64,000 nt of DNA from Polytrichum commune (taxonomy: Eukaryota > Streptophyta > Polytrichopsida > Polytrichales > Polytrichaceae), in NCBI GenBank assembly GCA_950295325.1, contig OX485803.1:27838001-27902000 (forward strand). Direction: 5' to 3'. Positions 27,739 to 64,000 of the stretch are shown piece by piece. The notes below the pieces were generated by a model, which saw nothing but the letters and a program-made list of their open reading frames with translations, was not told the DNA's origin and searched no databases. Positions within the stretch are counted from its first letter, which is position 1, and every line of letters starts with the position of its first letter. The position numbers were made by a program, and so were the translations under genes.

Positions 27739-28190
27739 CACTATATTCGTTAAATTGAGACTTTTTGGGCATTTTGAGACATTCACAGAAATAAGAACAA
27801 GGATAAATGGAACACATATTGGTGAAAGTTGTAAGATGCGAACACTTTGAAGCGGGTGTTTAGACCAAGAACCCCATTAATAATTCATATTTGTGATGGT
27901 TTAGGGTGAGCAATCCAAACCTTAGACCAAATTGAAGGGGAAATCTTAAAACATTCATATTATTGCACACAAAATATGAGAGCTTGTATGAATATGGTTT
28001 AGGTAGGGCAATCCAAACCATAGATCTTATTGAAGGGGAAATATGTTAACCAATATAATATTGCATACAAAATATTCCAAACTCATATTTGTGATGGTTT
28101 AGGTAGGGCAATCCAAACCTTAGACCATATGGAAGGGGAAATCATGTGAGACTTATATTATTGCAAATAAAACATACAAAGTATGGCATG
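27739..28190. mobile_element. Terminus of CACTRTATTCG family with three 98-100-bp subterminal repeats
   Basis: CACTATATTCGTTAAATTGA at 27739 starts a stretch of about 200 bp that matches the inverse of the right two-thirds of the element at 38608-38860, through gtaagatgcgaacactttga and the palindrome. It is followed by three tandem units of 98-100 bp, each with ggtttaggtagggcaatcc-type palindrome, then a ttgaaggggaaat phrase and a ttattgca.a.aaaat phrase. This is how subterminal repeats of a DNA transposon look. The next feature inward is the 3' end of the large minus-strand gene. Confidence 0.65.
27898..28119. repeat. Three copies of the GTTTGGGTCG-type palindrome
   Basis: Copies at 27898-27921, 27996-28019 and 28096-28119, each GGTTTAGG, a variable core, then AATCCAAACC. 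They are degenerate against the perfect copy at 63191 but of the same length and symmetry. Spacing is 98 and 100 bp. Confidence 0.7.
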
Positions 28191-28310
28191 TAAAATGCAT
28201 AGCATGCTAACACCACACATCCATTGGATAGTGCGACCCAAAATCATCTTGCCTATGGCCCAAAACCCTATGCCTACTATGGCCTATCTAGCCTTGGAGA
28301 CTGCCTATTT

Positions 28311-28530
28311 TTATTTTGCATCTTTTTCTTTTGCAGCGGCTTCTTTTGCTCGCATTGCTTCAACATTCCTGAAAATCTCCGCCCCGCGACTATAGCCAAG
28401 CTTGGGGTGACCGCCATCCATAACACATTTTGGATTCCGTCGGCCGCCCGAAGTATACGACGAAGAATTCGAATACGATGAAGTGGATTGTCTAGCATTT
28501 CTGGTCATGGAGTAGAAACGCTCCAACTCG
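28311..28530 (-). pseudogene. Exon G: basic/alanine-rich C-terminus
   Basis: It reads ASIELERFYSMTRNARQSTS, SYSNSSSYTSGGRRNPKCVM and ends FRNVEAMRAKEAAAKEKDAK followed by TAA at 28311. The acceptor is uncertain (a TAG-ended site near 28543). It is the last coding sequence before the palindrome array and the 27739 terminus. Confidence 0.45.
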
Positions 28531-28705
28531 ATGGACGCACTAGACCGGTCCGCATAGGTTTACGGGTTGGAGCAACCTGCAACGCGTCAATGCAAGAACA
28601 CATGTGTTAGTTTAGGGAGGAAGACCCAAACGTGTCACACGTTCATTTTTTAAGTGCAAAATGATTGTAATGCGCGGTTAACCATGTGTTTGGGGGGGGG
28701 TTCAC

Positions 28706-29059
28706 CTTGTCACCGGGGGCGTTCCCGTCCGAGTTGGCGAGGAGGGGCAAGGCGTCCCGCAAAGGAATAGGAAGGGTGCCACTCTTCGTAGGCCGAGCGT
28801 CCATCCGCAGCCGCCGTTGAGGTGTAATACTGCCGCCGGGCCGAGAGGGGGACACCTGGACGCATTTGCGATCTATGCCCTTGAGCGGCGACGGGGACGG
28901 AGATCGCCGGAAGATTTGCTTGGGTGGGGGGCTATCGACGACGTTGGCGTCAATAGGCTCCTTGGAGTAGTCGATGGTGGACGCGGCATCGTAGACGGTC
29001 TCGTAGAAGAAGCTCGCCAAGTTTGATTCACTGATGACCTCAATCGAGGGCTCCAAACG
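28706..29059 (-). pseudogene. Exon F: Ser/Pro-rich region
   Basis: Acceptor CATCAG at 29060, donor AAG/GTGAAC at 28705. It reads RLEPSIEVISESNLASFFYE, TVYDAASTIDYSKEPIDANV and a proline-directed Ser cluster (KQIFRRSPSPSPLKGID) with several SP sites, then SRPGGSITPQRRLRM. It looks like a disordered, phosphorylatable tail. It is assigned to the large gene by strand and order only. Confidence 0.5.
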
Positions 29060-29164
29060 CTGATGCCAAAACCCAAGGGAAGGGGGGGGGAGGGAGGAGC
29101 ATGTGAAAATTGATATACATTCGGGGCATAATATATCACACAAAATGGCACACCATGTAGTATC

Positions 29165-29481
29165 TCAAATGAGTTTATTATATTTTGCGTGAGAGTACAA
29201 CTCTCTGTACATATAGTCCCTCGGATCCATGTATCTCTCGCCTATCGGATTACAACTAAGGAACCGGGGCACGGGTAGTCCGCTCCCCACGAGCGTTTGA
29301 AGGTACTTAATAAGGTCTAACAAAAAGCGGTCTCGGACCTTCTCGACCGTCCACGTAGGGCAAACTATGAAGTTGGAGGTCGGGTTCAAAATGTTTTTGG
29401 AAGCGCTGTCGTCCACCATCAGGGTGTTGTCACGGGTGGGGCGAACATCGTAGGGACAACTGTGAGGCCAAACCCACCACC
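29165..29481 (-). pseudogene. Exon E: FCP1/NIF-like phosphatase, C-terminal half
   Basis: The acceptor at 29482 agrees in phase with the donor at 30820. It reads VWPHSCPYDVRPTRDNTLMV then VDDSASKNILNPTSNFIVCP, the motif-IV Asp pair and the conserved N-P of the family. FLLDLIKYLQTLVGSGLPVP matches the terminal helix. The frame runs to a stop at 29165 after YRELYSHAKYNKLI; whether it is spliced to 29059 or ends here is unresolved, because the visible GT sites do not match the phase of the next exon. Confidence 0.7.
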
Positions 29482-30820
29482 CTTAAGCGTCCTAGTCCGG
29501 GTGATGGTTTTGAGACTCGCATGTGTCACACCAAAAGTAGCAACATAAGATATACGTCTCATCTCAATGAACCCCCAACTTCTCTTAAGTCATGATGTTT
29601 TATTAATGCAATTTTCTTGAGTGGGTATAGCATTGGCCGCCTCAAGGGTCCAACCCACGGCCTTAGCTACACATGCTCTTAAGGACTTCCCTCTTGAAAC
29701 CTTAGTTCTGGCCGTTGATTCTTCACTAGTGCTCGTCACCTCGCTGAAGTTGTGACTTGTTGACTCCATGTGATGAGTACACAAGTGTTAAAAAACACTC
29801 ATCACTCTCATCACTTAGCGTTACATCCTCTTCCGCAATTCTTCGCCATTCACTCCCAAGTTCGTTCATTCTTCGCCATGGCACCCTTAAGTGCTTGATC
29901 ACAATCCCAACAACTTAACTACAAGTTCCCCCCCTTGATATCACCTTATGATGCCTTGTAGTCAACTCCCTAGCTAAATGCTCATTACCTAATTAGCATT
30001 AGGTAATATTCTTATTAACTAACTATGACCCAATCTAATGTCCCAGCTGTCTAACTTTTGAACCCAATACTGTATTTCCAGCAACTAAATACTGTATTTC
30101 CCAAAGCTCTAAGAGCTCAACTCCTTAGAGGAGAAAAAGCTTTAAACTCAATATGAATGTGGATGCTACAATTCTAAATGCCATGATTCCAAACACTATA
30201 AATCTAAATATCATGAATCTAAATTCTATAAGTCACATACAACAAGCTAAGCTCTAAATGTCTCAACCAAAGACTACTCCTAACCAATGTCAAACTAACT
30301 TCAAGACGAATTAGCCTTGGTTCTTCACCTCGAGACCTTGCACACACCCGTGCTCTTTTCTTGCTTCCCACACACCCACACTTATAACACGTGGGGTGCC
30401 AAGGAGCACAAAGGAAAGAGGATGAGAGAGGGAAAAGTGAGGGTTTATATAGTGAGTTGAGAGGGAGTAGGTGAGCACCCCCAAGGCTCAAGATAAACCT
30501 TTTGATCCTTTGCTACTTTGTAGGCTCTCATCCTATCCTCTAAGCCTTCAACTCTTAAACCAACCACTTAGGTCCTAATTCAAACATTTAACTCAAGGAG
30601 CCACCCTTGGTTCACCATACACTACGCTCACCTAACTAAGGAATTTTCTTCACACCCCTAAACTTTTAATCAACTACTCCACACGAGCCTAAGGTCTAAA
30701 CATAACTTCATTCAAGCTTCACTCTTTTTATATTTTTGTGAATAATCATAAAACATCAAAACATAACTTCTAATGGTTTCGAAGAGTTAAGAACACATGT
30801 GAGCACCATTTTGGGCTCAC
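29482..30820 (-). other. 1.34-kb intron between exons D and E
   Basis: GTGAGC donor and TTAAG acceptor, both in matching phase. The interior has Cys/Lys-rich reading frames without a known domain and repeated gctc/cttaag-type phrases; probably an inserted, decayed repeat. No gene is seen. Confidence 0.5.
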
Positions 30821-31382
30821 AACAACCGACCATGTTGGGACGCTGGTCCCATACGACTGGCTTCAAGACCTTAAGAAATTGATTTACGGCGGGGTTGTTG
30901 GGCTTCTTCACAACCCTGCCGTCGGGGGTGTATAATGTTTTACAAGACTCCTGTCCTAGGACCAAGCAGGGCGGTTGGAGTCCCTTGAAGATGAACTCCA
31001 TGACCGCCTGGGTGTTCTCGGACTTCATGGAGCTCCACACGATCACCCACCACTTAGATAGGGCGACCTGCAGGAAGCGCCGAAGCCACGGCCGGAGGTA
31101 CACTAGCTTGCTTTTGATGTACGCGGGGGGTCCGTCGTAGTTCCCGTCCTCGGGCTTGCAGAATGGCACCGTGGGGGCCTTGGGACAGTGCACGCATTGG
31201 ATGAGGACCCCGTTGAGGTCTAGCACCAGGAACCGCGTCTTGGGCGGCGGAGGTGGCACGGTTAGAATTGGGGGAACCACCACGCTGTCCTCCACGCTTC
31301 TCGGAGAGGACCGGTGGGGAGCCACGACGCTATGCTCCGAACCCTGCGGCGACGAGCGAGAGAAGGCGGCGACGACTATGTT
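30821..31382 (-). pseudogene. Exon D: FCP1/NIF-like phosphatase, N-terminal half
   Basis: It starts after acceptor CATAGCAG in phase with exon C. After RSVEDSVVVPPILTVPPPPP comes KTRFLVLDLNGVLIQ near 31220, the motif-I strand of HAD-superfamily FCP1/SCP phosphatases. The second Asp of DxD is Asn (DLNG), as I recall for a plant NIF subgroup, so classical catalysis is questionable. YLRPWLRRFLQVALSKWWVI and VWSSMKSENTQAVMEFIF match motif II (VWSS). VKKPNNPAVNQFLKVLKPV supplies the Lys of motif III. Donor GTGAGC at 30820. Confidence 0.75.
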
Positions 31383-31811: not shown

Positions 31812-31835
31812 GGTTTGGGTCGTTCGACCCAATCT
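31812..31835. repeat. Dispersed palindrome copy in intron C/D
   Basis: GGTTTGGGTCGTTCGACCCA followed by atct. It lies about 20 bases downstream of the intron donor at 31855. Confidence 0.75.
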
Positions 31836-31855
31836 GGGAGGTCTTAGTACATTAC

Positions 31856-32500
31856 CTCGCCCTGGTCATGTCTGGATGACGTGGAGCCCTCGACCGTCTT
31901 TGCTGCCCCCCCTTTATCGCCACCGCCTTCTTCAACTACGTCAGCAACCTTCTCCTGCAAAGGCTCACGATCAGGCCCTTGTCCAAAACCAATCTCCACA
32001 TGTGCATCATGCATGGTTTCATCGACTTGGTTAGGAGTAGATGTATCACCAGGCCCTTGCCGGCCTTCAACATCTAACATGGCTATGTCTTTTTGACACC
32101 CATCTTGGTCAAGGGACGACTGAGCTGCAACAGGGTTTGGATCGCCCGACCGAAACTGTCCTGCATCGGGATAGTTTCCTTGGGGCACTACAGGCGGGGG
32201 TGTGTTTGGCTCGGACGACCCAAACATCATAGGGTCGTCCTGCTGGTGAGGGGGAGCCATCACTATGGGGGGCCGAAGTGGTGGAGGGCCCAAAGGTGAG
32301 GAGGCTCCAGGGACGCGCTAGATGTTCGGATCGTCCACTTGCTGTACTGGGGCGTAGGGGACATGGTGTGGCCGCATCATATGTTGGAAGCTGAAGGACG
32401 ATTGCGGCACAGGCTGTTGAGGGATGCTATGCGCAGGGAAGCCGGGGGGCAAGTGCGGAAAGGCGCTGGAGGGAGCCACAACCAATCCTTGCGCCCACAT
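31856..32500 (-). pseudogene. Exon C, part 2: proline-rich region
   Basis: It continues in frame across the LTR (GMWAQGLVVAPSSAFPHLPP). Pro/Gln/Met-rich: FPAHSIPQQPVPQSSF, HMMRPHHVPYAPVQQVDD. A TAG occurs at 32318, then PLGPPPLRPPIVMAPPHQQD, GPGDTSTPNQVDETMHDAHV and KVADVVEEGGGDKGGAAKTV. The donor is GAG/GTAATG at 31855. One copy of the dispersed palindrome lies inside the coding sequence (32204-32225, encoding MFGSSEPN). Confidence 0.6.
32204..32225. repeat. Dispersed palindrome copy in the proline-rich exon
   Basis: GTTTGGCTCG, GA, CGACCCAAAC. The only copy inside coding sequence. Confidence 0.7.
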
Positions 32501-35500
32501 TGTGAACCCTTTGAGTGGTCCACCACTCCGCGGGATCACTTTTAGTTAGAATGTTAGCATTAAAAGTTAGAATTGATAGGGAATTTAGGAAAAATTAGTT
32601 CATTTAGCATTTAGCCTAGAAGAAGGAAGGTCAAAATGAAACTAAGTAGTGCTAGAAGATAGCAAAGTAGAAAAAATGTGCTAGCTAGTAAAAACAACTA
32701 GCTAAGCAAATATTAGTAGATGCTAGCTATTAAGCAAATGTTAGTAGATGCTAGCTAAGCAAATATTAGTAGATGCTAGCTATTAAGCAAATGTTAGTAA
32801 ATGTTAGCTCACCAAGTGTTAGTTTATTAGTTAGTGTGAGGCACACAAGACTATTGGAGGTGTTTTACGTAAGAAGATAAAATCGGCTTGAAGACTTTTG
32901 AAGACAAAAAAAGAAAGAGAGCAAGGGGGCTACTTGCCCACTTGCCCCCTTGCCAATTCGATGGCGAAAAATTAGAAAGATTTCTAGGTTCCCCGTCGGA
33001 GCCACCACGGCGAGAGGGTGGCAACCTCAACCGGGAAAACCCCCGACACAAAATTTCGGGAAAGGGTTTGAAAAATGGATCCGGTGGAGGAGGGGTCCAA
33101 CCCTTTTGTGAGAGGGTTTAAAAACCCCTCCTTCCACCTTGTAGCTCTCTCTCTTTCTCTAGTTTTTGGGCGAAGCCCTGCTTCAATGTAGTTAGGAAAA
33201 AATCCTTTAGCATGTATTCTCAATGGTCTAAAAGAAAGGCTTGAGAACCTCCTCTACTCTCTCTTCCTCTAATGCTTGGGCGAAGCCCTGCTTCAATGTA
33301 GTTAGGAAAAAATCCTTTAGCATGCATTCTCAATGGCCTAAAAGAAATGCTTGAGAACCTCCTCTACTCTCTCTCCTAGTTAGAATGTGTGTTTATTAAC
33401 ACACCAACAAAATGATTCCTTCTTTGTAGAGGTAGGTTGGATGGTAGAGTCTTGAGTGGAGGCATTGTAGACCTCATCTGCCAATGCCCTGAAGGCTTAG
33501 TTCAGAAGCTATAAAAAGATACTTATTATTTTTCTCTTAGAGAGATTTCCTATAGCTATCCATAGCCGTTTCCCATTTGTGATTTGGTTAAGATGACAAT
33601 TAGTTATGAATTTTCAAAGATGGAGTAGAAAAAACTGGGTGGTCTTGTGGGTAGCGGCTGCTGGATCAGACCTGCGAGCCCAATAGGAATTTTAATTCCA
33701 AGAAGTTATATTTTTCCCAAGTAGAACTTTTGTGTAGCTTTCCAAAATGGCTTAGAACATTTGATTTGAGCATGATTTGAATTAGATATGAATTGTGCAA
33801 GATGGGACACATAGTTTGAGAACTTTTGGTTGACTGCTGCATTACAGAGGACCTGCTGGGTTCACTTCGGCTTACCTTTCTAATCACATATTTTTATCAA
33901 ATACATCTTTTTAATATCTCTCCAGGGTCATATAGAACGTTTTATTTGAATAAGATTTGAATTAGATATGAATTGTTGAAGGTGAGATACATAGTTTAAG
34001 TCTTCTTGATTGACTGCTGTGTTACAAGGAGTCTGCTGAATTTTTATTAGCTTAACCTGCTAATGTCATAATTTTTCCTAGTTAGAGCTTGTTCATAGCT
34101 TTCCAATGGTATAAGGAAAGCCTAGATCCAAGTAGTAAGGAATGTGCTATGAATTTTTGAAGTTAGAAGGTAGATAGGTGGGTTGGAAGGGTCGGTTGAA
34201 TCGACCTCACACTTCCAACCCTCATAACTTTTGCAAATCTTATCCGATTCAAGTGATTTTTAGATCATTGGAAATATAATTAGGTGCACTAAGTATAAAT
34301 ATTATTCTTGGGATTAAATTACAGCGCAGAATAAATACTTTATATTTTAATTGTTAACTAAGGTACGCTTACTACCAAACTAGTTACAAAGAAGGAGGCA
34401 AGGTCGATGCTAGGGAAGTGGAGCAAGGAAGGAGATAGCGGCTCGGCCTACATCGAGCCCAAATCAACCGAGGAGAATTGAGGTAAATTTAGTAACGCTA
34501 GCCTTCCATTTAGGGTTGGAGGGAGCGCGGCTAAGGTACACATCTATAAACCCACTCACCTATCTCGTAAGGTCAAGTGGCTTGACCACTTGACCGCCAA
34601 GGGAATACCCAACTCCATTGTTTTCGGGGCCCTTGGTATGTTTTGTGGTAGTAGCTTCATTTATTAGCAAGTTTCGTGTGTGGTAAGTCGGATTAATCAC
34701 CGACACGACCACTCTGAATATTGTTGGTGGAAAGGTGGGGTTAATGACCCGCGAATCTACTATTATGTTGTTGGCCCCATAGATTGGGAGTAATGGCCCC
34801 AATTTATGAAGATTGCGCAACAGGTTGAACCTACAGGTTGTCCGTCACCCTGGTCCCATTGAGTTGCATTTCGTGGTCTATCCAGTGTAAACACATTTAA
34901 CAATCAAAACATACAAAATAAATCGTAAATCCTTGTTGGCAAGAGACCCGAATCGGAAACTTAACTCGGTAGAGTGACACCACCCTTCGAACCATTGATG
35001 TCCGAAGGGTTTGAGATGTTACTCGACCTTCAAAGGACCTGCACGAGGCCTTAGAAGGTTCCGAGGTAAGGGGTGCACCAACCAGGTAAGGGGTGATGCT
35101 TAATATGTTAATGTAGTGAGTTAGGACGTGCAAACAAAAGTAAGTAATTAAGAAGGAATTTGTGTGAAGGGTGGGACTTAGACCAAGTACCCCCGCTTAG
35201 AAAACTAAATAGAACTAAATAAAGAAATAGGAAGAATTGAATGGTCCATCAAATTGTCGTTATTCCGTTCGTTGAGTTAGGGTGGTATGAGTCACACCCG
35301 GTTGGGTGTATTAGAACCATCCCAATTCACAAATTAGGATTGCCTTGGTTTCAAGGCTGGTGCGTCTGCGCGTAGAATAGGTTGTAGGTTAAGGTTAGAA
35401 CTAGATATGAAATTGGTTAGTGGAGTTTAAAGCCACACTAGTAAAAAACTAAGGTCCAACCTCCGGAGGTACTACGACGCATATTTAATCTCCCTTAAAA

Positions 35501-35632
35501 ATCTAACTACTCACGTTATACACCTATCATCCGGGTTCGGCTTGGGCGCCTGCAAATGCAGGCCACCTTCACCGAAGGGCTTGTGTGATACTTTTAGGCT
35601 CCCTCGAAAGGGGGTGGCCCAAAAGTACCACA
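32501..35632 (-). mobile_element. Solo LTR, 3.13 kb, inverted copy, TSD CACAT
   Basis: Read on the minus strand it starts TGTGGTACTTTTGGGCCACC and ends GGGTTCACA. The duplication CACAT flanks it at 32496-32500 and 35633-35637. No gag/pol ORF. It is similar along its whole length to the inverse of the element at 36835-39922, for example the phrase cggattaatcaccg near 34.69 kb and the aggggtccaaccc region near 33.09 kb. It splits exon C of the large gene; removal keeps the frame. Confidence 0.82.
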
Positions 35633-36480
35633 CACATCCCTTGTATCACCTGCGATATGAGATCGACGCTCGATGGAGGTTGGGCCATCGCCCTTTGTCG
35701 TTCCTACTCCAACAGCAGAGCCCTTAACTCTGCTACCTTGTTCCGCATTGAGGGTTCTTCTGCGGCAGCTTTTTGGAGGCGGACGCGTTGCTCCTCGTCC
35801 CTCCGCATCTTCTCATTGGCCTCCTCCACGGTTAGGACTTCGGGTTTCATCCTAACCATGCTTGCGAACGCTGTCGGGGAAGGGGGATCCGATCTGAGCC
35901 GTTTGGCGAGCTCAATGTCGTCCTCATCCTCACTGCTTATGGTGATCGTCTCCTCCACTACGTAGTCGCCGTAGAGCTTCTTCCCCTTCACTCTCCTTCT
36001 CTCCCTGAACATCGCAGTCGCGTCTCTGGAGAACATGTCCCTAGCATCGTCCACCGTGAGGACGGGCACCAACTTATTTTGCGGGGTTGCCACCCGCATA
36101 GCTTTCTTCCGTTGGGGGGCTTCAGATTCCTGCGTGTACCCCGTTGCTCCTTCTTCGACCTTCCCTTCGGCCTTCTGCTCCTCTTGTTCCTCTTGTTCCT
36201 CCTCCTCCTCCTCCACCTCATCACCCGGCCCCCGAGATGAGGTACCCGGATGCAATCCGACGAGCGGTTCGGGTGCTCCAACCGGCGCCCTCATCACAAA
36301 TTCCTCGGGGTTGACACGCCTTGCCATATCCATAGGGTTTTCACCTCCCTCTAGAATCTCCTCGACGTAGCTCCCCGGGATCCAATCTAGGATGTCCATT
36401 TTCTTTGCAATGGCTTTTTGGGTTTTGTAAAATTGAAGATCATTGTCCTCTATATAGGAGTACACCTTCAAACCCAACAT
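35633..36480 (-). pseudogene. Exon C, part 1: end of methylase fold, acidic and charged tail
   Basis: It opens after an acceptor with MLGLKVYSYIEDNDLQFYKT, the last strand-helix of the methylase-like fold. A Glu-rich run of about 25 residues follows (DEVEEEEEEQEEQEEQ), then two similar segments VLTVDDARDMFSRDATAMFR and VLTVEEANEKMRRDEEQRVR, an internal duplication. A TAG stands at 35704 after RALLLE. The frame is open beyond it (MAQPPSSVDLISQVIQGM) up to the solo LTR. The stop may be a mutated Gln codon (CAG to TAG) or the genuine end of a methylase gene. Confidence 0.6.
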
Positions 36481-42071: not shown

Positions 42072-42079
42072 CTGTACAA

Positions 42080-42440: not shown

Positions 42441-42450
42441 CGTGTCTTAC

Positions 42451-46736: not shown

Positions 46737-46739
46737 TTT

Positions 46740-49680: not shown

Positions 49681-49684
49681 TCCT

Positions 49685-49730: not shown

Positions 49731-49736
49731 TTTCAG

Positions 49737-53284: not shown

Positions 53285-53332
53285 GATGGAAAAGTTTCGC
53301 AACTAGAGCATGTGTTTATCCGTGGAAGTAAA
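53285..53332 (+). pseudogene. Captured exon of spliceosomal SmD3
   Basis: Exactly 16 codons between CTGCAG and GTAAGG encode DGKVSQLEHVFIRGSK, which is the Sm2-motif segment of SmD3, a core protein of spliceosomal snRNPs. The remaining SmD3 exons are not recognisable within the element, so this is a captured fragment. Confidence 0.7.
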
Positions 53333-54139: not shown

Positions 54140-57100
54140 GAAACGTGTAATTGTAGAGGAGACGGAATACGAGCAACTGCGGCGGCTTAAAATTGAAAGA
54201 AACAGCAGGAAGTTGGAAAGCTTGGGCTTTCCAGCATTAGCGGCGGCGATCGCACCGGCACCTCGGAAAGATCGGTAAATCTGCCTTCTTATTCAAAGTA
54301 CGTCATATCTTTGTCTTTGAAGTATGCACTAGGAACTATTGCGCCCTCAAACTTATCGCATGTATTTGTGTCATTACTGCAGTTCTCTTGTCACAGTCGT
54401 ACATGTACCGCACCTCGACTTTGTATCCTTGTATACTTTAATATTCTACTCCTAGATTAGGGTGGTTTTTGTCAAATGCGAGTCGCTATTATGGATCACA
54501 AGTTAACCACCTTACTCAGTGAAATAGCTTCATTGTCCGATGAAGATGTCCAGAAGTTGTTTATTGAGGTTTCCCAATTCCCTGCAATACATGCCTGTAT
54601 GATAACCAAAATGCAAGAGCTATTGGCTCATACCTTCGAGGATTCCAGGACAATCTCGGAGTCCTTGAAGCCACCTAGGAGGAGTTGCAGGTTATCAACG
54701 TTACCATCAACCTCAACGCACATAGAGGCACGAGATTGTCGCAACCCTTGCTAGCCCCCCTTGACCATCTTGCCAATTTTCAATTCTAGCAAAGGTTACG
54801 AGCGCTAACCATTCGCATTCCGCCATGCTAATGGTTAGCTCCTCCTACCCCGGACCTTATAGTTCATAGGAGGGAAACCAACCCTCCTACTTTGCTTTCG
54901 GGACTCACCCCTTAATCGGTAACCCATTCCTAGATGTGGACTTCCATCCATGGAAGTCCAATCCCATGTTGATCATCGCATTGCCGGAGCAACACTACAA
55001 CAACCCGAACCATACTAGGCAACTATGGCCTCACAATGGGCCAATGCCCATGGAGGCCTTGCCGTTTGGCCTCGGGTGGGTGAGGCCACACCACCTCACC
55101 CATATAAGCCTCTAGGACTTTACGCGGGGCCCCTACCCCACCGTCAACCAACCTCTTGTCTCTCTACCAAGAGTTGGGGCCAAGTGGACACTTTCCTTTA
55201 GCTGCTGGGCCTAGAACCCCCCCAGCAGCTTCAGACCATCATAACTTCCTTGTATGATGTCTGATCATAACAACCAACCACTCCATCTTCATCTACGCGT
55301 CACGTAGATGCCAATGGACTCCTCACTTGCCCCATTCAGGCAAGTAATGAGGAAGTTATGCCTGCTTGAACCTTGGCAGTCCCGGGAATCTCTCCCAGGC
55401 ACTGCTGTACCAGGGCGCTGTCCCGGGACAGCGCCCCACTCAAATGGCCATAACTCCTAGCTCACACGTCAGATTGAGGTGTTCTTGAGCATTCTAGAAT
55501 CACCACGCCATGAGCTACGCATAGCTCATGGCCTTACCCTTGTGCCTCCTAGTCTCTGTGGGTGGGAGGCGTTCCCAACGCCCGGGGCCCTCACCCACAC
55601 TAGGATCACTTGGGCCCTCTCACCAACGGCGCCACAAGTCCCGGGTGTCACTCCGGGGTCCCCCTTGTGCCCATGGTGTTTCGGGCACTCCTCATGGAGA
55701 GGTGCGCGACAGAGATACTAGCAAGGAAGATGGTTCGTGCAGTGAGCGATTTGAAAAAACTGATAAGGATGCAGACTATGTTCTAGAATCGGAAACAGAG
55801 GCATCCGAAGAGGAGTGCAGAGAACCCATTGCACCACAAGCAAAATTGGTAAGTATCATGCTTTCCATGGCCGTTCATCATAGTTTTGTCTTTGCATTTT
55901 CTAAATTCTTCTTCACCATGCATTGAGCTTTACTGGGCACAATACTATGCATAGTGCCACATTACTATGCGCAATAGGACATTACTATGCACTATAGTAC
56001 ATTACTTTGCACAATACTATTCACAGCAGGACATTACTTTTCATATTACTAGACACAGTAGGCCATTACTATGCGCAATAGGACAGTACTATGTACTGTA
56101 GGTCATTACTCAGCATAGTAGAACTTCACTTTGCACAGTAGAACAACACTAATCATTATATGACCGAGACGCCTTTATGAATTTGTTTTCAGACTCCTCA
56201 CAATCCAAGAACTTGGTCAGTGAGGAAGAAGAAGATGGCTTCAAACCCTAGGGCGAAGAGAGCTCTACCCGTTGATGATGTTGGAGACTGGGATGAAGAT
56301 TGCGACAACGAAGAGGATGGGGAGGAGGAAGGAGACGCGTATGATTGGAGCAAGCCAGTGTTGATGGAAGATTCCAGAGATTATGGTAGAGTGCGGGGGA
56401 AGCAACCCCAAAGGGATGATGGTGCTTTGCACGAAGATGGTGGTGCAGCCAAATTGGCGCTGGAAATAGAGAAGAAGCTCAAAATTATGAAAAATGAACT
56501 GGCTATGCAATCACGCCTTCACCCAGCGAGGTCACGTAGCAGCGACGAAGACGAAGACATGATCGGCAAGGAATGGGTAGCGAGACGAAGAGAACCACAT
56601 CATAATTCGCAAATGAAGGCCAAGAGGAGGGCTGCCAACAAAGCGTGTCGGGAGCAGTTTGAGGAGAGAGCGCGGGATGGAAAACAACGATTTGTAGTAG
56701 ATCTCGATGATAATGGTGTTCAATTCGTTTTCATTTCCTTGTATGATGTGCGTATGGAACCCCCCATGGAACTAGCTAGCAAGATTTTTGGGCATAGGTG
56801 GTTGAGGTCCTAGTGTTTCCAACTCCCAACTGGTTGTATGTTGACATCTTCCAGGTTTTCTTTATTAGTTGGTGCATATTCTACAATCCCTCTAAAACAA
56901 TCTTTAATTTTCCTGAGATCTTGAAGTGTAACCAGCTATTTCTGAAACTCAACCGGTTGATTAGCAACTAGCACCTGATTCTCCCCGTTCATTAATGAAC
57001 TTCCCATCACCATTTTGGGTTGTTTTAGATTGTAGAATCTCCTACAGGTTTTGATTTGTAATTGGATTGTATACTAGAGTAGAACATTACTGCATACAGT

Positions 57101-59417
57101 AGAACATTCTAGTATCACATTACTATGCACAGTAGTACATTACTACGCACAGTAGGGAAGTACTATATAGAGTTGTACATTACAAACCACAGTAACTACT
57201 TGCAGTTAACATGCACAGTTGTACATGACCATGCACAGTTATTTTGCATAGATCCATATTATTATATACAGCTGAACAGTTAGGTAGTGGCTAATGTGGG
57301 TGGTCAATGTGGATTGTGGTTGATATGGATTGCTATGCAGGATTTCCCAGTGGTGTATATAGGCCACAATGGCTGAATGCTCTGCGTGGCTACTCCAGCG
57401 ACTTAGACTGGAGCGTCGACAACATAAATGACCAGGATGGGACAGCATTGGACAACATCCATACGCGCATGAGGGAGAACTGGGAATATCGAGGATACAA
57501 CGGGGAACCGCGTGTGTTAAGGTATGAGGTATTGAAAACCAACCTTGCCCAACAGCTAAAGAGCAAAAGAACGCAAATGAAAATGCGAATTATGAAAGGT
57601 TTGTGTAAACCAGAATCTATCCGGCTTGATCATTGGTGTAACATGGTGGAGCTCTGCCGCAATCCGAAGAAGATCGTGCAGGCGAACGTTATGAGGGAGG
57701 CCCGGAAATGTGTGAAAAAAGTGTCAACATTCGGCCGATCCGAGGGTGAGGTGCGGGCACGGCTGGTAAGCACTTTGGCAACTCCGAATTAGTTTTTTAC
57801 ATTTATCGCACGATTATTGGTGAAAGTAGCAAATGATGTGCAGTTGTTGTTATGATTTTTGCTAACTCACTTTCTTTGTGTAGGCGGCAAGTTTGCAGAG
57901 GGACCCCCGCCAAGAAGAGGTGGAGGAGGAGCTTGAAAGGCCCAAGAACACATCAAGGTTAAAAGGCGGGCGTCCAGCGTCGTCCACGTTGTCAAAGGGG
58001 GGGGAGGGATAAGCGATGCACAATGGGGTTTAGGATTATCTCCTCATGTAAGTCGAACGAGGAGTGCAGGTATTGAGGAGGTAAGGGCAGAGGTTCGGCA
58101 GTTGGATGAAAAGTTCAACAACATTCAGAGCTCGCTTCTTGCAGTAATGACAAAGCTTGGGATACCAGTGGAAAGAGAGGTAGGCACACCGTCACGCGGA
58201 GGACACCCTTGCAGTGTTGATGCGGGAAAATCCAACTCTCGGAGAAGTGTATGTCCGCTTGCACGGTCAGCTTCAAAGGAGCCCACAAGCAAGGTAGTAG
58301 AGTCTGGTGGTGCAGGTGATTTGCCAATCGTGGCGAGCCCCGAAATCCCCTCCGGGTCCCAGAAAACCTCTTCGGAGCATGAGGACTTTGAACATGTACG
58401 CAATATGGGCGGATTCTTCTGAAATCACTTTCATGTAAATTTTACTCCACATAGTTAAGTAGAGATTACGCCATAAAGTGAGATGTATATGCCATTACTG
58501 GATTTGTTTACTATAAGCAGTCAACGCGCTTACTAGGTGTAGTAATGGATTTAATTCGTTATTGTCCGGCATTACTATTGGCAGTAATGACCCGAATGTA
58601 ACTCACAGTGACATAACTGGTGGCAGTAGAACATAATATCACCAGGCTTAGTTATATGGCCTTATGTATGTGTTGAACTAAATCATAACTGGTGTAGCGA
58701 TGTCTAATGTGCGCAATAGAAGTCGACATCCACAGGTAAATGAGGTTTCCAACGATGCAATTCGACCAGTTCGGGCGCCATCGAGCAGCCAAGGCATGAG
58801 TGCGCATGGTGGGGATGGCAAAAAAGATGCTGCCCCTAAACAGAAGCGTGCACGACTGACTGAAGGCGAGAAGTTGACATTGGAAGCTCTGCCAATTTTA
58901 AAGAAAGGTGACGTTGTAGAGAAACTGAGAAGTAGCCCATTAAAGAACAAACAGGTGGTGGACAAACGTCGGGCGGATAAACCTCCCCTTGCCACCAAGG
59001 CTTCAAAGAAGACCAAAACCGGCCTCGAATTGGTACGCACTTGCTAGGAAACATGCAACGATATTTTGTTGTTGAACTCATGACCTTGCCCTAATGTAAT
59101 TCAAACACTAACACGTGGTTGTTGCACTTGTGCAGAATGCGGGGGATGTGGTTCATATCTGTGGTCATGAAGAGGAAGACTTGAAGACGACATTCATTGG
59201 AAAGGGTATTATAAAGAACCTAGCAGGTGGGATGTTGCACAATAAGGTGATTGGCGGTGGCTACATATCTCTCACATTTAAGGAGACATATAAGGACGAC
59301 TATCCCCTATGTTTTCCCCTCTCCGAAGACGACCCTCTAATCACTACAATCGGCAACGCCAAAGGCCACTATGTTCTTTGGCCAAATGATTGTGTTAGGT
59401 TGTATGCACCTGCGTGA
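54140..59417 (+). CDS. CACTA second protein, Transposase_24/TNPA type, multi-exon
   Basis: Exons by splice signals: 54140-54274, about 55713-55848, 56193 to about 56750, 57341-57765, 57884-58395, 58736-59032 and 59136-59417; a start exon upstream is not identified. Exon 1 reads EETEYEQLRRLKIERNSRKL then ESLGFPALAAAIAP, the usual N-terminal phrase of these proteins. Proteins of this class (TNPA in En/Spm) bind subterminal repeats and help the Tnp2 transposase. One frameshift lies in a run of eight G near 58005. It is divergent from the Tnp2 and SET genes, unlike the same-strand order of En/Spm. Confidence 0.75.
54440..55690. mobile_element. Probable insertion in intron 1 of the TNPA-type gene
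   Basis: A GC-richer block unlike its surroundings. It starts near an ORF MRVAIMDHKLTTLLSEIASL, SDEDVQKLFIEVSQFPAIHA, which shifts frame near 54650 and resembles a gag-like helical N-terminus. It continues with gtcccgggaatctctccc-type and ccataactcctagctcacac-type phrases like those of LTRs. Borders and target duplication were not found. Confidence 0.35.
55713..55848 (+). CDS. TNPA-type gene, acidic exon
   Basis: It reads RDTSKEDGSCSERFEKTDKD, ADYVLESETEASEEECREPI then APQAKL before GTAAGT. The acidic DxDY-type segment after the N-terminal helix is usual for these proteins. The acceptor is not certain. Confidence 0.6.
55930..56160. repeat. CATTACTATGCACAGTA repeats in intron
   Basis: About eight units of 25-30 bp, such as acattactatgcgcaatagg. 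The same words appear at 45.6 and 57.1 kb. Confidence 0.75.
56193..56810 (+). CDS. TNPA-type gene, exon with coiled and acidic segments
   Basis: After acceptor TTTTCAG it reads TPHNPRTWSVRKKKMASNP, DVGDWDEDCDNEEDGEEEGD, KLALEIEKKLKIMKNELAMQ and a charged region to about 56750. The open frame ends at 56813; the exact donor is unresolved, since phase 1 is required by the next exon. Confidence 0.6.
57060..57250. repeat. CATTACTATGCACAGTA repeats in intron
   Basis: Six to seven units of the CACTA-specific motif directly before the next coding exon. Confidence 0.75.
57341..57765 (+). CDS. TNPA-type gene, Transposase_24 core exon
   Basis: It reads FPSGVYRPQWLNALRGYSSD, TALDNIHTRMRENWEYRGYN, RYEVLKTNLAQQLKSKRTQM, RLDHWCNMVELCRNPKKIV and ARKCVKKVSTFGRSEGEVRA before CTG/GTAAGC. 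Conserved points of the plant Ptta/En/Spm Transposase_24 family are visible: the LxxxHxRMRExWE phrase, the W in the middle and the basic RxxxxKxxxxFGR helix. No stop. Confidence 0.8.
57884..58395 (+). CDS. TNPA-type gene, linker exon with a G-run frameshift
   Basis: It reads AASLQRDPRQEEVEEELERP and KGGRPASSTLSKGG. After a run of eight G near 58005 the sensible frame shifts to GISDAQWGLGLSPHVSRTRS, RAEVRQLDEKFNNIQSSLLA (coiled coil) and a Ser-rich stretch to EDFEH before GTACGC. The slip may be a real mutation or a sequencing error in the homopolymer. Confidence 0.6.
58430..58690. repeat. Roughly 180-bp CACTA subterminal unit, copy in intron
   Basis: Contains ccataaagtgaga.atat, ttgtttactataa.cagtca, cttacta.gt..agtaatgga, ttcgttattgtccg and attacta..ggcagtaatga, all found again at 59.93-60.31 kb. 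Confidence 0.7.
58736..59032 (+). CDS. TNPA-type gene, basic exon
   Basis: The acceptor CCACAG and donor GTACGC are both in phase 0. It reads VNEVSNDAIRPVRAPSSSQG, KDAAPKQKRARLTEGEKLTL and KKGDVVEKLRSSPLKNKQVV, a Lys-rich segment probably acting in nuclear entry and DNA contact. Confidence 0.6.
59136..59417 (+). CDS. TNPA-type gene, C-terminal exon
   Basis: After TGTGCAG it reads NAGDVVHICGHEEEDLKTTF, IGKGIIKNLAGGMLHNKVIG, GGYISLTFKETYKDDYPLCF and IGNAKGHYVLWPNDCVRLYA before the stop at 59417. The G.G-beta-rich pattern ending in A.G..V.WP matches the C-terminal domain (DUF8039-like) commonly found with Transposase_24 proteins. Confidence 0.7.
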   Translation, partial: NAGDVVHICGHEEEDLKTTFIGKGIIKNLAGGMLHNKVIGGGYISLTFKETYKDDYPLCFPLSEDDPLITTIGNAKGHYVLWPNDCVRLYAPA

Positions 59418-59929
59418 ATGTAGTGTGGACTTGTAGAGCAATGTTGATATTCAGACTTATAGAACCTCGGAGTGTAGTATTTATCATTGCTAGTAGTGAA
59501 ATGTGGAACATGAATGACATACTATTTGTACCCTTATGAATTTGGTAGTAGAACATTGGAACCATGTTTGTGTGACTGCACTTGGTGGAGGAATGTATTA
59601 TGCACTTCACTGTATGTCGTAAATGAATGTTAGTTTATAGAATCAACTTGCATCTCAAAGTGAAGCGACCATCCATTAGATGACTCAGCATAGTATTGTT
59701 AGTATGAATAAGCAAATTATTTTGTAAATGCCATTAACATCTAATTGTGATGAGTTGACCTCATGTTACTAGTTGTAGTAAGTACAGTCATATGCATCCA
59801 GAACATGTCACTTTGCAAAGCCATATAAAGTTCACTACCAGTTAGTAGCAATAATGACATGTGACAACCATATGACTCCACAAAGTAAGCCAAATAAAAA
59901 TGGTTGATACAAAAGTTACTACACATAGT

Positions 59930-60560
59930 AAAGTAGGTCCATCCGCCAAATAGTGAGAAATATATGCTATTGCCAAAGATGTTTACTAAAACCAGTCACA
60001 TGCACTTACTATACCGAGTTATGGATGTCATGCGTTACTGTCTGTGATTACTAAGGGCAGTGACGTGGAGAATTCAATTCATTACCCGTAAGATGACTTT
60101 GTGTAGTGAAGTGCGAATGTTAGTACACCCCTACATGACTACTTTATTGCACATAGTAAAATGGATATTACGCCATAAAGTGAGAAATCTATGTCATTGC
60201 CAGATTTGTTTACTATAATAAGTCACATGCACTTACTACGTACAGTTATGGATCTCCTTCGTTATTGTCCGAGATTACTAGAGGGAGTGATATGCAGATC
60301 TTTTTTCATTTCACATATATGACTTTGTGTAGTGAAGTCCAAAAGTTAGTACACACCTACATGACTTGTCCGAGATTACTACAGGGAGTTATATGGTGAC
60401 GTGTATTATGTTGCTTATATTGACGAGGCATAGTGAAGTAGGACATGACTTCATGAAGTGAAGCACGCGGAGCACCCCAAACTTCACTTCCATTGGGAAC
60501 GTGTTCATTGGGAACGTCTTGTCCGACATTACTATGACCAAACTTTACTGCTTGTCCGAA
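59930..60560. repeat. Right subterminal repeats of the CACTA element
   Basis: Two and a half units of about 180 bp (starts near 59930, 60130 and 60320), with ttactacacatagtaaagt, tgtttactaa.a.cagtcac, cacttacta.. and gagattactagagg.agtga. Candidate binding sites for the TNPA-type protein. Confidence 0.7.
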
Positions 60561-60653
60561 GCGACTGGTCGTTTCTTACGTCAGTAAAGTCTGGGTTTTC
60601 TCACTCGTAGGAGTGAAAAAACCCAGTTGTAAAAGACGTGTTTTGCTGTAGTG

Positions 60654-60907
60654 TGGAGTGTTCGAAAGAACTCTCTCATTAGAGGTTTCAACTGCTTGAA
60701 ACGTGCGGTCGAGTTAAAAAGCAGGCATGTGTCGGGATCGATCAGGTCCCCCGTCTCGTGCTTCTCGAACACGTTCTTCCACTTCAACCATACATGATCG
60801 GATGTTGTTATCAAATAAATTTCTCCTCGCAACTCGTTGTATTTTTTTTGCTTATGACTTGCATTATCAATAGAAGAGAATTTGTTTATCATTTGGTACT
60901 TGAAGAG
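60654..60907 (-). pseudogene. Exon B, part 1 (upstream of the CACTA insertion)
   Basis: It begins after acceptor ATGCAG with LFKYQMINKFSSIDNASHKQ and continues ELRGEIYLITTSDHVWLKWK, then LIDPDTCLLFNSTARFKQLK and PLMREFFRTL. It is cut at 60654 by the right terminus of the 19.85-kb CACTA element. The frame continues at 40800 as QGLSETEMGKAATHILHVEP once one TGG is removed. Composition is helical; no named domain. Confidence 0.7.
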
Positions 60908-61033: not shown

Positions 61034-62346
61034 CTCCCACTTTGGATTTTTGTTTTTTGCATTCTCCCTCTCCTTGGGAGGCCTGCCGTAGAACTCCCAC
61101 ACCTCCCTTGACGCCATGATGTTGCGAATCCACGCTTCTTGTTCCCCATGTTGAAGTAGCGGGAGATGTCGCTCAATCTAGTTTCGTCATCTGACCACAC
61201 CACCAAGGCCTTCCACACCTTCAATTTTTCTTTCTGGTGATTGGGATCTTCCCACTCGGTCATGAGTTGGATTTTCTTCGATGCTTCCACGCTGTGCTGG
61301 CCATCAATTAGCCAAAAATCACCCTTCTGAATTGACGGCCACATATCCTGGGTGGGCATTCTTTTGTGTCCATGGGGCATAACTACGATAGTTTGCCTAT
61401 CGTCTTTGAATTGCTCGCTCACTATCTGCGCGATTATTCAATCCACGTAGGCATCTTCCTTTGCCCGAACACACTTTTCCGGCGGGGCTAGGTGGCACTG
61501 AGCAATGTTGATGTCGAACTTGAAGTCCCTACCCATGAAGAAACAGTGCGAGCACTTGGTCGTGAAATTGTTCACGATTTTTTGGATCTCAGACGCGTCC
61601 ACTTCTTGCCCGGGCTTTGGCATGCGCAGCTCTGGGGAGACTGGCTCATCAGTCATAACTGATGCCGATTCTCTTTGCCTCTTTGAGGGAGTTGTCTGCC
61701 GGCTGTTGGATGGCGTCGGTGTCTCACTATCAGCCGATGTTTCTGTAGGCGTAGTTCTTCTTGAATCAGCGGGAACCGGTCGCGGCTTCCTCACTGTTTG
61801 AGGTCTGGACGAGCCTGCGCCTTCTTCAGTTGTGGCCTTCCTCCGCACCGGTTGTTGTGATTTGGACTTGCTCTGTTGAGCCTTGTTTAACGTATTGATT
61901 GTATGTTTGAGCTTGGTAAACCTGGTTGCCACTTTCGTATTTGAAATGCTTGCATCTATGAAGACATACTCCGGTTTAATAACGTCTGGCTCAACGCAAG
62001 AGTCCTTAACGTACAAGGGATCAAATGGCTCGGAGAATTGGTGCATGAACATATGTGCACTCTGCATTGCAGAATTCTCAAGAATGACGTCGATATAGTC
62101 ACCTAGAGCCTGTACTGACGCCACCTCCCACCCCGTCATAGTTGCCCATGTGTTTTGATCCACTGTCCCAACCTTCACCACAAAGAGGATCTTGAATTGC
62201 GATGCCTTGACAACTTGTAAGGACCACGCAATGACGAGCCCGTCCTTGGGCACGTATGACTCATCTTCAGGGGTTTCGTGTTCCTGCCATACCATATCTG
62301 GTGCGAGCGAGAACCATCTTTCACCAGGTCTTTTTTTGGGGGCCAT
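61034..62346 (-). pseudogene. Exon A: novel N-terminus, linker and ParB-like domain
   Basis: The ATG at 62346 immediately follows an acceptor (CCTTGCAG), so the leader intron lies in the 5' UTR. It reads MAPKKRPGERWFSLAPDMVW, then a compact unknown module to about residue 150, and a Ser/Thr/Pro/Arg linker (TPTETSADSETPTPSNSRQT). A Cys pair follows (TTKCSHCFFMG). A TGA at 61438-61440 sits where Trp is plausible (DAYVD, stop, IIAQIVSEQF). Next is the ParB-like core, QTIVVMPHGHKRMPTQDMW, then DFWLIDGQHSVEASKKIQ near 61305; the GQHS phrase matches the G(H/Q)HR strand-helix signature of ParB/Srx-like domains. A frameshift near 61140 separates SRYFNMGN from EQEAWIRNIMASREVWEFYG. The donor is GAG/GTGAGT at 61033. 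Confidence 0.65.
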
Positions 62347-62372
62347 CTGCAAGGAAAATCACACCACTGTTA

Positions 62373-62394
62373 GTTTCGGTCGGGCGACCCAAAC
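62373..62394. repeat. Dispersed palindrome copy in the leader intron
   Basis: GTTTCGGTCG, GG, CGACCCAAAC, about 25 bp upstream of the acceptor that precedes the start codon. Confidence 0.75.
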
Positions 62395-63158
62395 TATCAG
62401 AATGGATGTCAAATATGCACGGGTAGATCACTTAGTGCATTTTAAAAACGACGTGCGGCATAATATAGAGAGGATTAAAATCATTTGAAATAAAAATTAT
62501 AAAGGAATTCCAAATAATGAAGGGGCCATTAAATGTAGACAATCCCATTATAAGTAAGTTAGATGGACATAAAACGTGGGCCATTAATTTTTTGTAAAAT
62601 TAATATAGGGGCTGAAGATAAGGATCCTAAAAGGTGTGTTTAGTATGGTATGTAAATGGGTTTAGGACTCACGGGGATGGATGATGATTGGGAATTCTGT
62701 CTGTCCAAAGTTACTTAAAAGGAATATAGAGTACAAATTATTGCAGTGACTTGGACAATATAAGTAATGGAAGGGTGCAAACAAATGGGCCATTTTTGAA
62801 ATTTAAGTAATTATAGGGAGGCTTTAATTCAGCCCTTGAAGGTAAATAGCCCCAAAACAAAAAACCCCCAGCCGCACGTGGTGCACAAAAATGTCTTAGA
62901 GTGATCTACCCGTGCAAATATGTTGAGGTCACACAACTCAAGCCGCGTGAACTTTGATAAATGTCAATAATTATCTGGGATTGGGAGTTAGCTTGATCGT
63001 GTAATACGATTTTTAAAATACTTGGTAAAAAACTTCTTCCCAAGTGTTTTCGTGTTTCCAAGGGCATTTACATTATTCATGTAGATATCTTGTACACCGC
63101 GCTTATTTTGTTTTTAGTATCTTCTATTATGGGATCAATATGAATTTCGTATCTCATA
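62395..63158. other. 5' region of the ParB/methylase gene
   Basis: AT-rich with no convincing ORF. It probably includes the leader intron; promoter elements could not be assigned. Confidence 0.4.
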
Positions 63159-63213
63159 GTTTGGGTCACTCGATCCAAACCTGCAGTTGTGTTTGGGTCG
63201 CTCGACCCAAACC
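63159..63213. repeat. Two palindrome copies, one perfect
   Basis: 63159-63181 is GTTTGGGTCA, CT, CGATCCAAACC. 63191-63213 is GTTTGGGTCG, CT, CGACCCAAACC, a perfect 10-bp inverted repeat with a 2-bp spacer. They lie 9 bp apart. Confidence 0.85.
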
Positions 63214-63289
63214 AGTTTCCGTACACTGAAACAACAAAAATTAGTTGTGAATAATATGTATTCTCGACTAATTCTTGTTGTTTCAATTT

Positions 63290-64000
63290 ACGATCGCTAA
63301 TGATACATTGCTTATTATGAAATGCTTGTTATAAAATGCTTATTAAATGATGCTTATTATATAATACATGTGATAGAATGCTTAGAATAGAATGCTTGGG
63401 ATAAGTATAAGAAAAACAAACTTATGCACCAAAAACGTTACCTGTTCTTGCAAGCTTTAGAAGAAGCTTTTCTTGCAAGCTATTTGTGTAATTGGAATCT
63501 GAGAAGCAGTTGTGTTCTAATCTCACAAATACTGGAGACTCTGATGAATCTTAGACCGCTCTACAGACGAAATGAACTAAACTTTTAATGTCGCAACACT
63601 CTGTATGTAAAGGTAATGAGATTTGAAGATCCTAAACCCTCAACACTCCGAATTTCACAAACTCACAACCCTCAAAACTCTGAATCTAATCCTTCAAGCT
63701 ATCACCAATCTGATAATAAACCCTCAACACTCAACACTATAAAGCTCTTAAACCCTCAACACTCTGAATCTAATTCCTTCAAGCGTCAACAATGTAAATG
63801 CTAAACTTCAACACTCTAAACTCAACACTCTAAACTTCACAACCTTCAACACTCTAAAGCTCACTCCTTCAAGCTATGAACATTCTAAAGCTCCTAAACA
63901 CTTCACACTCTGAATCCTTAAACCCTCCACACTCTGAAACGCACAAAGTATCAATACTCTTACGAATAAACCAAAAAGAAGAATCAGACAAGAACCTATA
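63290..64000. repeat. Short tandem repeats near the window end
   Basis: At 63.30-63.40 kb units of about 20 bp on aatgcttattata. From about 63.64 kb, units of 20-40 bp on ctcaacactctgaatctaa and ccttcaagctat. Possibly subterminal DNA of the putative large element. Confidence 0.6.

Follow-up and report, generated by a model that had tools for sequence, protein, structure and literature searches.

A young DNA transposon family with two genes in Polytrichum commune, seen in a decayed copy, and the palindromes that its accessory protein may read

What is the long, interrupted minus-strand gene in a 64,000-nucleotide stretch of the Polytrichum commune genome, and what could the palindromes around it be for? 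The stretch (assembly GCA_950295325.1, contig OX485803.1, here C1, 27,838,001-27,902,000) is called the window, and coordinates are window positions unless a contig is named. A preliminary description had proposed an undescribed large transposon that begins at 27739 and carries a gene with ParB-like, DNA methylase, and FCP1-like parts. We searched the 407.8-Mb assembly, which has 64 contigs, seven of them 42 to 78 Mb long. The window holds one copy of a young DNA transposon family that has two genes and hundreds of termini genome-wide, and this copy is decayed and heavily interrupted. Our best overall explanation, to which we give a probability of about 0.55, adds to this family an accessory protein that would read a repeated palindrome and so help the element to escape silencing.

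The left terminus, CACTATATTCGTTAAATTGAGA, is at 27739. With a 601-bp query from this position, 39 of 40 scored places began at query position 1, and one began at position 25. These 40 were the best of 967 first-look candidates, and the window's own copy was among them. Across the left border, 12 other copies were fetched. The 11-base terminus that had been pointed out at 27739 was exact in 11 of them and had one changed base in the other, and the left flanks of 11 copies were mutually different. The inverted terminus, whose absence past 64 kb had been named beforehand as grounds for rejecting the transposon, is present at 70618-70639 (G000:C1:27908618-27908639), outside the window. A 550-bp query ending there returned 41 rows. 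Forty stop at position 550, and the remaining one is a fragment adjoining one of those places. The exact 22-base terminus occurs genome-wide 344 times forward and 356 times in reverse, and the reversed-pattern control gave 0 and 0. Among the first 100 listed terminus places, 93 of which were on C1, there were 42 neighbouring pairs no more than 60 kb apart, and 37 of the 42 were head to head. The facing pairs were 16.0-18.5 kb long in 18 cases, longer in 15, and shorter in 4. The likely cause of the longer pairs is nested insertion, as in the window copy.

A 4-bp target duplication was found in 11 of 11 elements read at both ends, and a 5-bp duplication was found in none of the 11. The 4-bp duplication lies outside an extra AA/TT, so the true ends are AACACTA...TAGTGTT. 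In the window copy it is ATAT. The proposed large DNA transposon is thus borne out by the inverted terminus past 64 kb, the recurrence of its borders genome-wide, and the 4-bp duplications.

Three intact copies, A, B, and C, were retrieved. They are 16431, 16449, and 16703 bp long. Aligned-column identity is 99.4% between B and C and 91.5% between A and B, and some transposition is therefore recent. The intact copies contain two divergent genes, a DUF7869 gene and an accessory gene on the opposite strand. An accessory gene opposite the transposase is also described for Sola1-1_Ec32 of Ectocarpus (PMC12477816). The DUF7869 gene has two long exons (PF25273, E 1.2e-41 in Pfam, copy B). All 150 scored genomic places of this protein family, the best 150 of 1491 candidates, were over the Pfam cut-off. 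The DUF7869 protein is most likely a transposase of a Sola1-like kind. Sola1 elements make a 4-bp target duplication, and the family has both such a duplication (11/11, at offset 2) and terminal inverted repeats. A 4-bp duplication is also described for Sola2, in the part of PMC3627910 consulted. No paper on DUF7869 was found among the open-access papers searched.

The termini contain CACTA, as in CACTA (EnSpm) elements. The family differs from these in its AACACTA ends, its 4-bp duplication, and the presence of DUF7869 instead of Tnp2. A 3-bp duplication directly outside CACTA was found in 0 of 11 elements. Copy B had no Tnp2 match in the open reading frames (ORFs) scanned, and the Tnp2 ORFs of the window belong to a nested insertion. 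We rejected membership in CACTA/EnSpm.

The window copy, set against copy B, contains the following features.

27733-27736, unstranded: left copy of the 4-bp target site duplication ATAT, in the register of 11/11 elements; right copy outside the window
27737-27760, plus: terminal inverted repeat AACACTATATTCGTTAAATTGAGA, from border and terminus searches
27899-28118, unstranded: three subterminal units with one degenerate palindrome each (27899, 27997, 28097; 5, 4, and 4 mismatches to the internal word)
29168-29461, minus: 3' part of the accessory gene's last exon, FCP1-like; corresponds to residues 173-270 of the exon in intact form and is 94% identical to copy B
29462-30821, unstranded: insertion splitting the FCP1-like exon, an alignment gap against copy B
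30822-31343, minus: FCP1-like exon, 5' part, with DLNGVL motif (NIF PF03031, E 6.9e-8 on the window fragment)
31813-32225, unstranded: internal palindromes at 31813, 32135, and 32204, with 1-2 mismatches to GTTTGGGTCG-NN-CGACCCAAAC
31856-32500, minus: accessory gene linker exon, 3' part, by alignment to copy B
32501-35634, unstranded: insertion inside the linker exon, by the same alignment
35635-36480, minus: linker exon, 5' part, by the same alignment
36626-36835, minus: methylase-position exon, 3' part, NVFGGSK, by the same alignment
36836-39922, unstranded: insertion inside the methylase-position exon, by the same alignment; contains the 253-bp derivative
38608-38860, minus: 253-bp element, a family member with an internal deletion, in reverse orientation, identified from its ends, palindrome, and flanks
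39923-40802, minus: methylase-position exon, middle part, FGMIDFRNIPG, with in-frame TGA at 40331-40333, by alignment to copy B
40803-60652, unstranded: 19.85-kb insertion that includes a Tnp2 (CACTA) element with ORFs at about 41183-45381, by alignment and domain scan
60653-60904, minus: methylase-position exon, 5' part, by alignment to copy B
61034-62346, minus: first coding exon with ParB-like motif IDGQHSVEAS, ATG at 62346, in-frame TGA at 61438-61440, and frame break at about 61114-61141, by alignment to copy B
62373-63212, unstranded: palindromes upstream of the accessory gene (62373, 63159, 63191), by word search
25786-26804, minus: second family copy, truncated, of which a terminus (25786) and the C-terminal end of DUF7869 are present, by terminus search and alignment

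From 62346 down to 29168, the exon pieces have 79-94% amino acid identity to copy B. One long minus-strand gene with its 5' end at 62346 had been proposed and is recovered here, broken by four insertions, two in-frame TGA codons, and one frame break. The palindromes described on either side of it were also found, those of the three units after the left terminus in degenerate form. Of the DUF7869 gene, the last 147 residues were the only part found, at 69667-70107, outside the window. The window copy, without an intact transposase gene of its own, would hardly be autonomous. The 253-bp element had been called an internally deleted derivative, and this holds. It matches one element end over 196 bp and the other over 62-63 bp, and it has one palindrome, at 38679, with 2 mismatches. 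An ATTA duplication is readable in its flanks, and AT replaces AA/TT there. The native part of the window copy was put at about 10 kb; the sum of aligned segments is nearer 9 kb, with all of 62395-64000 counted as native.

Related families with the same accessory gene were found in the genome. F2a is 16.06 kb between the termini found and has ends CACTATATTCG. F2b is a partial element, with its DUF7869 side outside the sequence read. F3 is 24,985 bp long with a TACC duplication, and its termini are unlike those of the reported family. The exon order (ParB motif, methylase position, FCP1-like) is common to all four. F2a and F2b have 35-37% identity to the reported family in the first two exons and 41-42% in the FCP1-like exon. 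All four joints of their exon plan have AG acceptors, and the first two have GT donors. In F3, identity is 23-27% for the first two exons and 33-36% for the FCP1-like one; its DUF7869 gene is 35-52% identical. A divergent DUF7869 gene is present in F2a (E 4e-40) and F3 (E 2.4e-46). A fifth DUF7869 family, L106 (E 5.6e-44), has a divergent gene with DGQHVEHA (motif GQHVEHA), and no FCP1-like part was found within the 10 kb read. The 692-aa DUF7869 open frame of the F3 copy read is present at many places with identical scores, which points to a recent burst of the 25-kb F3 family.

The accessory gene of copy B has, by the exon model, coding exons of 442, 444, 495, and 270 codons with GT/AG at three introns. 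The predicted protein of about 1650 aa would contain a domain with a ParB-like motif, a domain in the position of a permuted methylase, a disordered-looking linker, and an FCP1-like domain. Additional ORFs lie downstream of the last stop in the intact copies. The FCP1-like module was correctly named, with 52 bits to Pfam NIF (PF03031) against a gathering cut-off of 21.8 in copy B. The catalytic motif of FCP1/NIF proteins is DxDx(T/V). Its place reads D-[LV]-N-G (DLNG or DVNG) in 4/4 transposon families, and the catalytic motif is thus absent there. Three FCP1-like host homologues were compared. The nearest two stand in tandem at C2:43149300-43151900 and have 27-30% identity, with E down to 2.7e-21; one of them has DVDG and the other DVNG.

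The first exon contains a conserved block with GQH[ST]xxA in 4/4 families. The motif of the ParB superfamily is G-x-H-[RS]-x-x-A. No significant Pfam, NCBIfam, or PDB match was found for this exon; the best was DUF6551 (E 0.11), on the GQH[ST]xxA motif. Searches of PDB with phmmer and hmmsearch gave no useful match for the ParB-like or the methylase-position exon. Searches of phages by tblastn gave no useful result, and a scan of viral contigs with the ParB-like block gave 104 pattern matches, none of which was confirmed. A profile comparison with a MULE-like protein, described below, aligned GQH[ST]xxA to GNHR (E 0.022), which is no more than suggestive. The ParB-like part of the preliminary description therefore stands as a motif, without a significant family match, and we use "ParB-like" for the accessory gene at the level of the motif.

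The second exon had been read as a DNA methylase, and this name was not supported. Nothing above chance was found for a methylase in Pfam, PHROGs, NCBIfam, PADLOC, or PDB (best E 0.13-0.25). A DPPY-type motif is present in 0/4 families, and FxGxG is not at the expected place. The DPPY place reads DFR in three families and DTR in F3 as aligned (DFP is nearby), and the FxGxG place reads N-[VI]-[FC]-G-G-[STN]-K in 4/4. We compared the exon with a 23-row profile of the YhdJ type, in which 20 of 23 rows have a DPPY-type motif. The score was E 0.088 with the expected region in register, and 3 of 20 column shuffles reached 0.063 or lower. By hmmsearch with the same profile, the accessory exon had E 0.32 against 1.5e-6 for a MULE-like piece. 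We withhold the methylase name because the profile score is no better than shuffles. An active enzyme that methylates its own element (N4C or N6A) would fit the position of the gene and its ParB-like partner, as in Sola1-1_Ec32 (PMC12477816), and a permuted methylase is recognisable in the MULE-like relative (hhalign E 3.1e-7), though without DPPY in its translated pieces. With both motif places altered in every family compared, no family match, and a profile score within the shuffles, we reject this candidate as improbable. The residues expected for catalysis are substituted in the four families, so the methylase-position and FCP1-like domains probably serve to bind and not to catalyse.

The accessory gene could also be a passenger, a captured host or bacterial sequence that is carried without use, and its FCP1-like domain does resemble the host NIF-family genes. 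We compared copies A and B by the ratio of nonsynonymous to synonymous divergence (dN/dS). The accessory exons had values of 0.08 (ParB-like), 0.24 (methylase position), 0.17 (linker), and 0.15 (FCP1-like), and the two DUF7869 exons had 0.21 and 0.17. Purifying selection was found on all six coding exons (Fisher p 9e-5 or lower), with one stop codon skipped in DUF7869 exon I. The A versus C comparison agrees. The values of 0.08-0.24 in the accessory exons and the same module order in F2a, F2b, and F3 argue against a passenger, which we regard as very improbable. Synonymous divergence (dS) between A and B was 0.31 in the first accessory exon and 0.07-0.11 in the other exons, and across the region that separates the two genes the copies were 69-93% identical. 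The raised dS of the first exon and the uneven intergenic identity suggest a mosaic or gene-conversion history.

The word of the reported family is a 22-bp palindrome of 10+2+10 bp. In the families with this build, a complete element has about 18-38 repeats of its word. Copies A, B, and C contain 26, 33, and 34 sites at up to 2 mismatches and 31, 38, and 38 at up to 4. At up to 2 mismatches, the word was absent from five shuffles, window 1-25700, the F2 stretch, and a 17-kb F3 piece. Exact sites genome-wide number 9231 for this word; the F2a word has 2909 and the F3 word 644, and each reversed control gave 0. The conservation of the half-sites follows from how the sites were picked. The central two bases vary, and the flanks have a 39-45% majority base in the three families. 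We rejected the idea that the palindromes are copies of one longer repeat; their flanks are not conserved, though many sites stand in short tandem arrays.

The sites of copy B lie in front of both genes and in introns. Coding sequence is overlapped by 2 of 33 sites, against 16.0 expected (p 1.6e-7). In F2a the overlap is 2 of 25 against 12.0 expected (p 2.1e-5), with approximate exon limits. In A, B, and C, exact sites extend from about 2.7 kb off an end to the middle of the element, and near the ends there are only sites with 3-4 mismatches. This distribution bears on whether the transposase binds the palindromes, or uses them as hairpins, with the accessory gene serving some other purpose. 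Binding to subterminal repeats is common among transposases, and the subterminal units of the reported family do hold degenerate palindromes. The exact sites, however, lie inward, before both genes and in introns, and the same word is present in an element with a different, weakly SWIM/MULE-like transposase. We consider the transposase an unlikely reader.

That element, in which the stretch L096 lies (G000:C1:2152000-2161999, with L099 and L098), is about 12.3 kb long and has 61-bp matching ends (87%). Its flanks have AGTTGGCATG on both sides, a 9-10-bp duplication. MULE elements have a target duplication of the 9-bp class and a SWIM zinc finger. The transposase-strand ORFs of L096 have a weak SWIM match (E 0.075, below the cut-off). 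On the opposite strand is a gene in which WDGNHRFFAW precedes a permuted methylase. For the methylase, hhalign gave E 3.1e-7 at probability 93, against 0.13 for the best of 20 shuffles, and DPPY is likewise missing from the pieces translated. No FCP1-like match was found in L096 or L097 by tblastn, a search that did not take in the rest of the L096 element. Three stretches with sites outside the elements of the reported family were examined, L096, L097, and L102, and the last two show portions of related MULE-like elements. In the genome, 153 matches to the ParB-like exon of L096 were found (1246 candidates, 149 scored). A neighbouring ORF at L099 3550-4653 (minus strand) is presumably the C-terminal part of a hAT transposase, and it adjoins the MULE-like element.

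Eight element types with the ParB motif were examined, and they have seven words of the 10+2+10 build. The words are GTTTGGGTCG in the reported family and, identically, in L096; TTTACGAACG in F2a; TTTACGGACG in F2b; CCCACGGGTG in F3; GGGTGAGGCA in L106; CCCTGTGCGT in L105, where it stands in front of the ParB-like gene; and, less strictly, TGGGGTTCGG in L103 and L104. A palindrome thus accompanies this kind of gene in two unrelated transposon types, and the word can change quickly and be common to very different proteins.

The strongest rival to the accessory protein is a host factor that reads the palindromes and is exploited by several transposon superfamilies. One word is common to two unrelated elements whose accessory proteins have no clear similarity, and closely related ParB exons are paired with different words, as a host reader would allow. 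Several host factors, all of one class, would have to exist to account for seven words of one build across eight element types. The sites are also concentrated in the elements. Of the first 100 listed sites of the reported word, 61 lie in exact-terminus pairs, which cover 1.6% of that stretch. A host reader is unlikely on this balance, though less so than the transposase.

The reading that we prefer gives the palindromes to the accessory protein. As a dimer, the protein would bind them as the element's own address. Once bound, it would recruit or shield the transcription machinery, and the FCP1-like fold could dock on the tail of RNA polymerase II. Both genes of the element would thereby escape silencing, much as VANC acts on VANDAL elements. 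A joint change of palindrome word and reader would give rise to a new family. That the palindromes are a self-address used by the accessory protein is, to us, an even bet. A wider claim is more tentative and falls somewhat short of that. It is that the system is a eukaryotic counterpart of ParB-parS, in which transposon ParB-like proteins would read family-specific 22-bp palindromes, the address could change within a family and be taken over across superfamilies, and the systems would compete and be mutually insulated.

Several results weigh against the accessory protein as reader or against parts of the picture. Word and ParB sequence do not track simply. The ParB exons of L105 and L096 are 81.5% identical, yet their words differ. 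The exons of the reported family have no tblastn match to L096 or L097 at E 1e-3, and among profile comparisons of the four accessory exons with seven pieces of the MULE-like element the best E was 0.022. We hold the mechanism at about one chance in two because the word and the ParB exon are decoupled. The words are also less separate than a list suggests. Those of F2a and F2b are one base apart per half-site, and each scores on the other's sites at 2 mismatches. L103 and L104 contain 2 and 4 strict palindromes with largest same-word groups of 1 and 2, and their word is found mainly at 2-4 mismatches. In F3 the coding overlap is 2 of 18 sites against 5.4 expected, which is not significant (p 0.06; exon limits approximate). 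Besides the 61 sites in terminus pairs, 16 of the first 100 are within 20 kb of an unpaired terminus, and 23 are elsewhere. Judged by their coordinates, these 23 fall in L096 (10), L097 (9), and L102 (3), with one at C1:438279.

In eight of nine control stretches, the largest group of sites with one word had 0-2 members. The ninth, the right flank of F3, had a group of 6. Control L100, one of the eight, reaches into an F2a-related derivative (3 sites, 2-3 mismatches) and is hence not a clean control. The F2a copy has two ends without a matching 4-bp duplication. The selection test covers one pair of copies (A-B), and B versus C gave dN/dS of 0.04-1.02 with too few changes to tell. The binding role proposed for the two domains is drawn from motifs. 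For the first exon of the window copy, modelled from one sequence, AlphaFold reached a mean pLDDT of 34 and gave no usable fold.

Other features were observed beside the element and its relatives. The right flank of F3 (L037, about G000:C2:4183250-4183650) contains six copies of another palindrome with a GGCCGTTAACGGCC core at a spacing of about 100 bp. In the 19.85-kb insertion of the window, a SET-domain ORF (PF00856, E 8.8e-11) at 45853-46449 on the minus strand adjoins the Tnp2 ORFs and is possibly a host gene carried by the CACTA element. Three ORFs of 161-210 aa are at 56181-58422 on the plus strand inside the same insertion. ORFs at 5450-14742 on the minus strand look, from their sequence, like pieces of TIR-NBS-LRR resistance genes.

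Transposons must tell themselves from the rest of the genome, so as to escape silencing without harming the host. VANDAL/VANC is a case with evidence for such self-recognition (PMC5735166). In the Polytrichum genome, several families in parallel have clean DNA words and genes for candidate readers, some of them in unrelated transposons. If the ParB-like protein is the reader, the evolution of a new private address could be tested by swapping words and proteins, and a DNA address system of bacterial style would become testable in a plant. Word-reader pairs might then be useful as orthogonal DNA tags, and the algal accessory genes with ParB and methylase parts would be linked to dispersed palindromes. 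It would also follow that methylase motifs can be absent from a domain that stays under selection.

How does the family compare with known systems? Bacterial ParB-parS has palindromic sites of roughly this size in several copies, and the likeness is a ParB-like motif with multiple palindromic sites. The difference is that GQH[ST]xxA is what supports ParB in the Polytrichum gene, with no sequence match to the ParB family. The MULE-like element L096 has the same divergent pair of a transposase and a ParB-like plus methylase gene, and the identical word. It differs in its transposase (weak SWIM), its 9-10-bp duplication, its GNHR motif, and its recognisable permuted methylase.

Sola1-1_Ec32 also has a ParB and methyltransferase gene opposite the transposase, and green and red algae are mentioned with it (PMC12477816). 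The authors propose that such proteins bind and modify their own transposon. Compared by description, the Polytrichum family shares with it an accessory gene on the strand opposite the transposase, here with a ParB-like motif and a domain in the methylase position. It differs by its plant host, the C-terminal FCP1-like module, the noncanonical methylase motifs, and the family-specific palindromes. The part of PMC12477816 consulted yielded no mention of FCP1 or palindromes. A Physcomitrella Sola1 appears in a review table (PMC9033089). Among the open-access matches listed, including the consulted parts of PMC12477816, PMC9033089, PMC5735166, PMC3627910, and PMC10294476, none was found to tie palindromes or an FCP1-like domain to such a gene. 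The element is therefore not undescribed in its gene plan, which has been printed for Ectocarpus. The FCP1-like module and the repeated 10+2+10-bp palindrome word, which we did not find described, may be new.

The nearest working model is VANDAL/VANC of Arabidopsis. VANC proteins were shown to bind a motif and to cause loss of DNA methylation, in the portion of PMC5735166 consulted, from which the following points are also taken. In both systems the transposon encodes a second protein, and a short motif is repeated in noncoding parts, often in tandem. In both, related families use different motifs, and the VANC6 motif is also present in the unrelated element AT9TSD1. VANC motifs are 8-9 bases long and are not called palindromes, whereas the Polytrichum word is 22 bp and palindromic, and no ParB-like or FCP1-like domain is named there. 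The Polytrichum system may thus work like VANC, and on anything compared it is not a member of that group.

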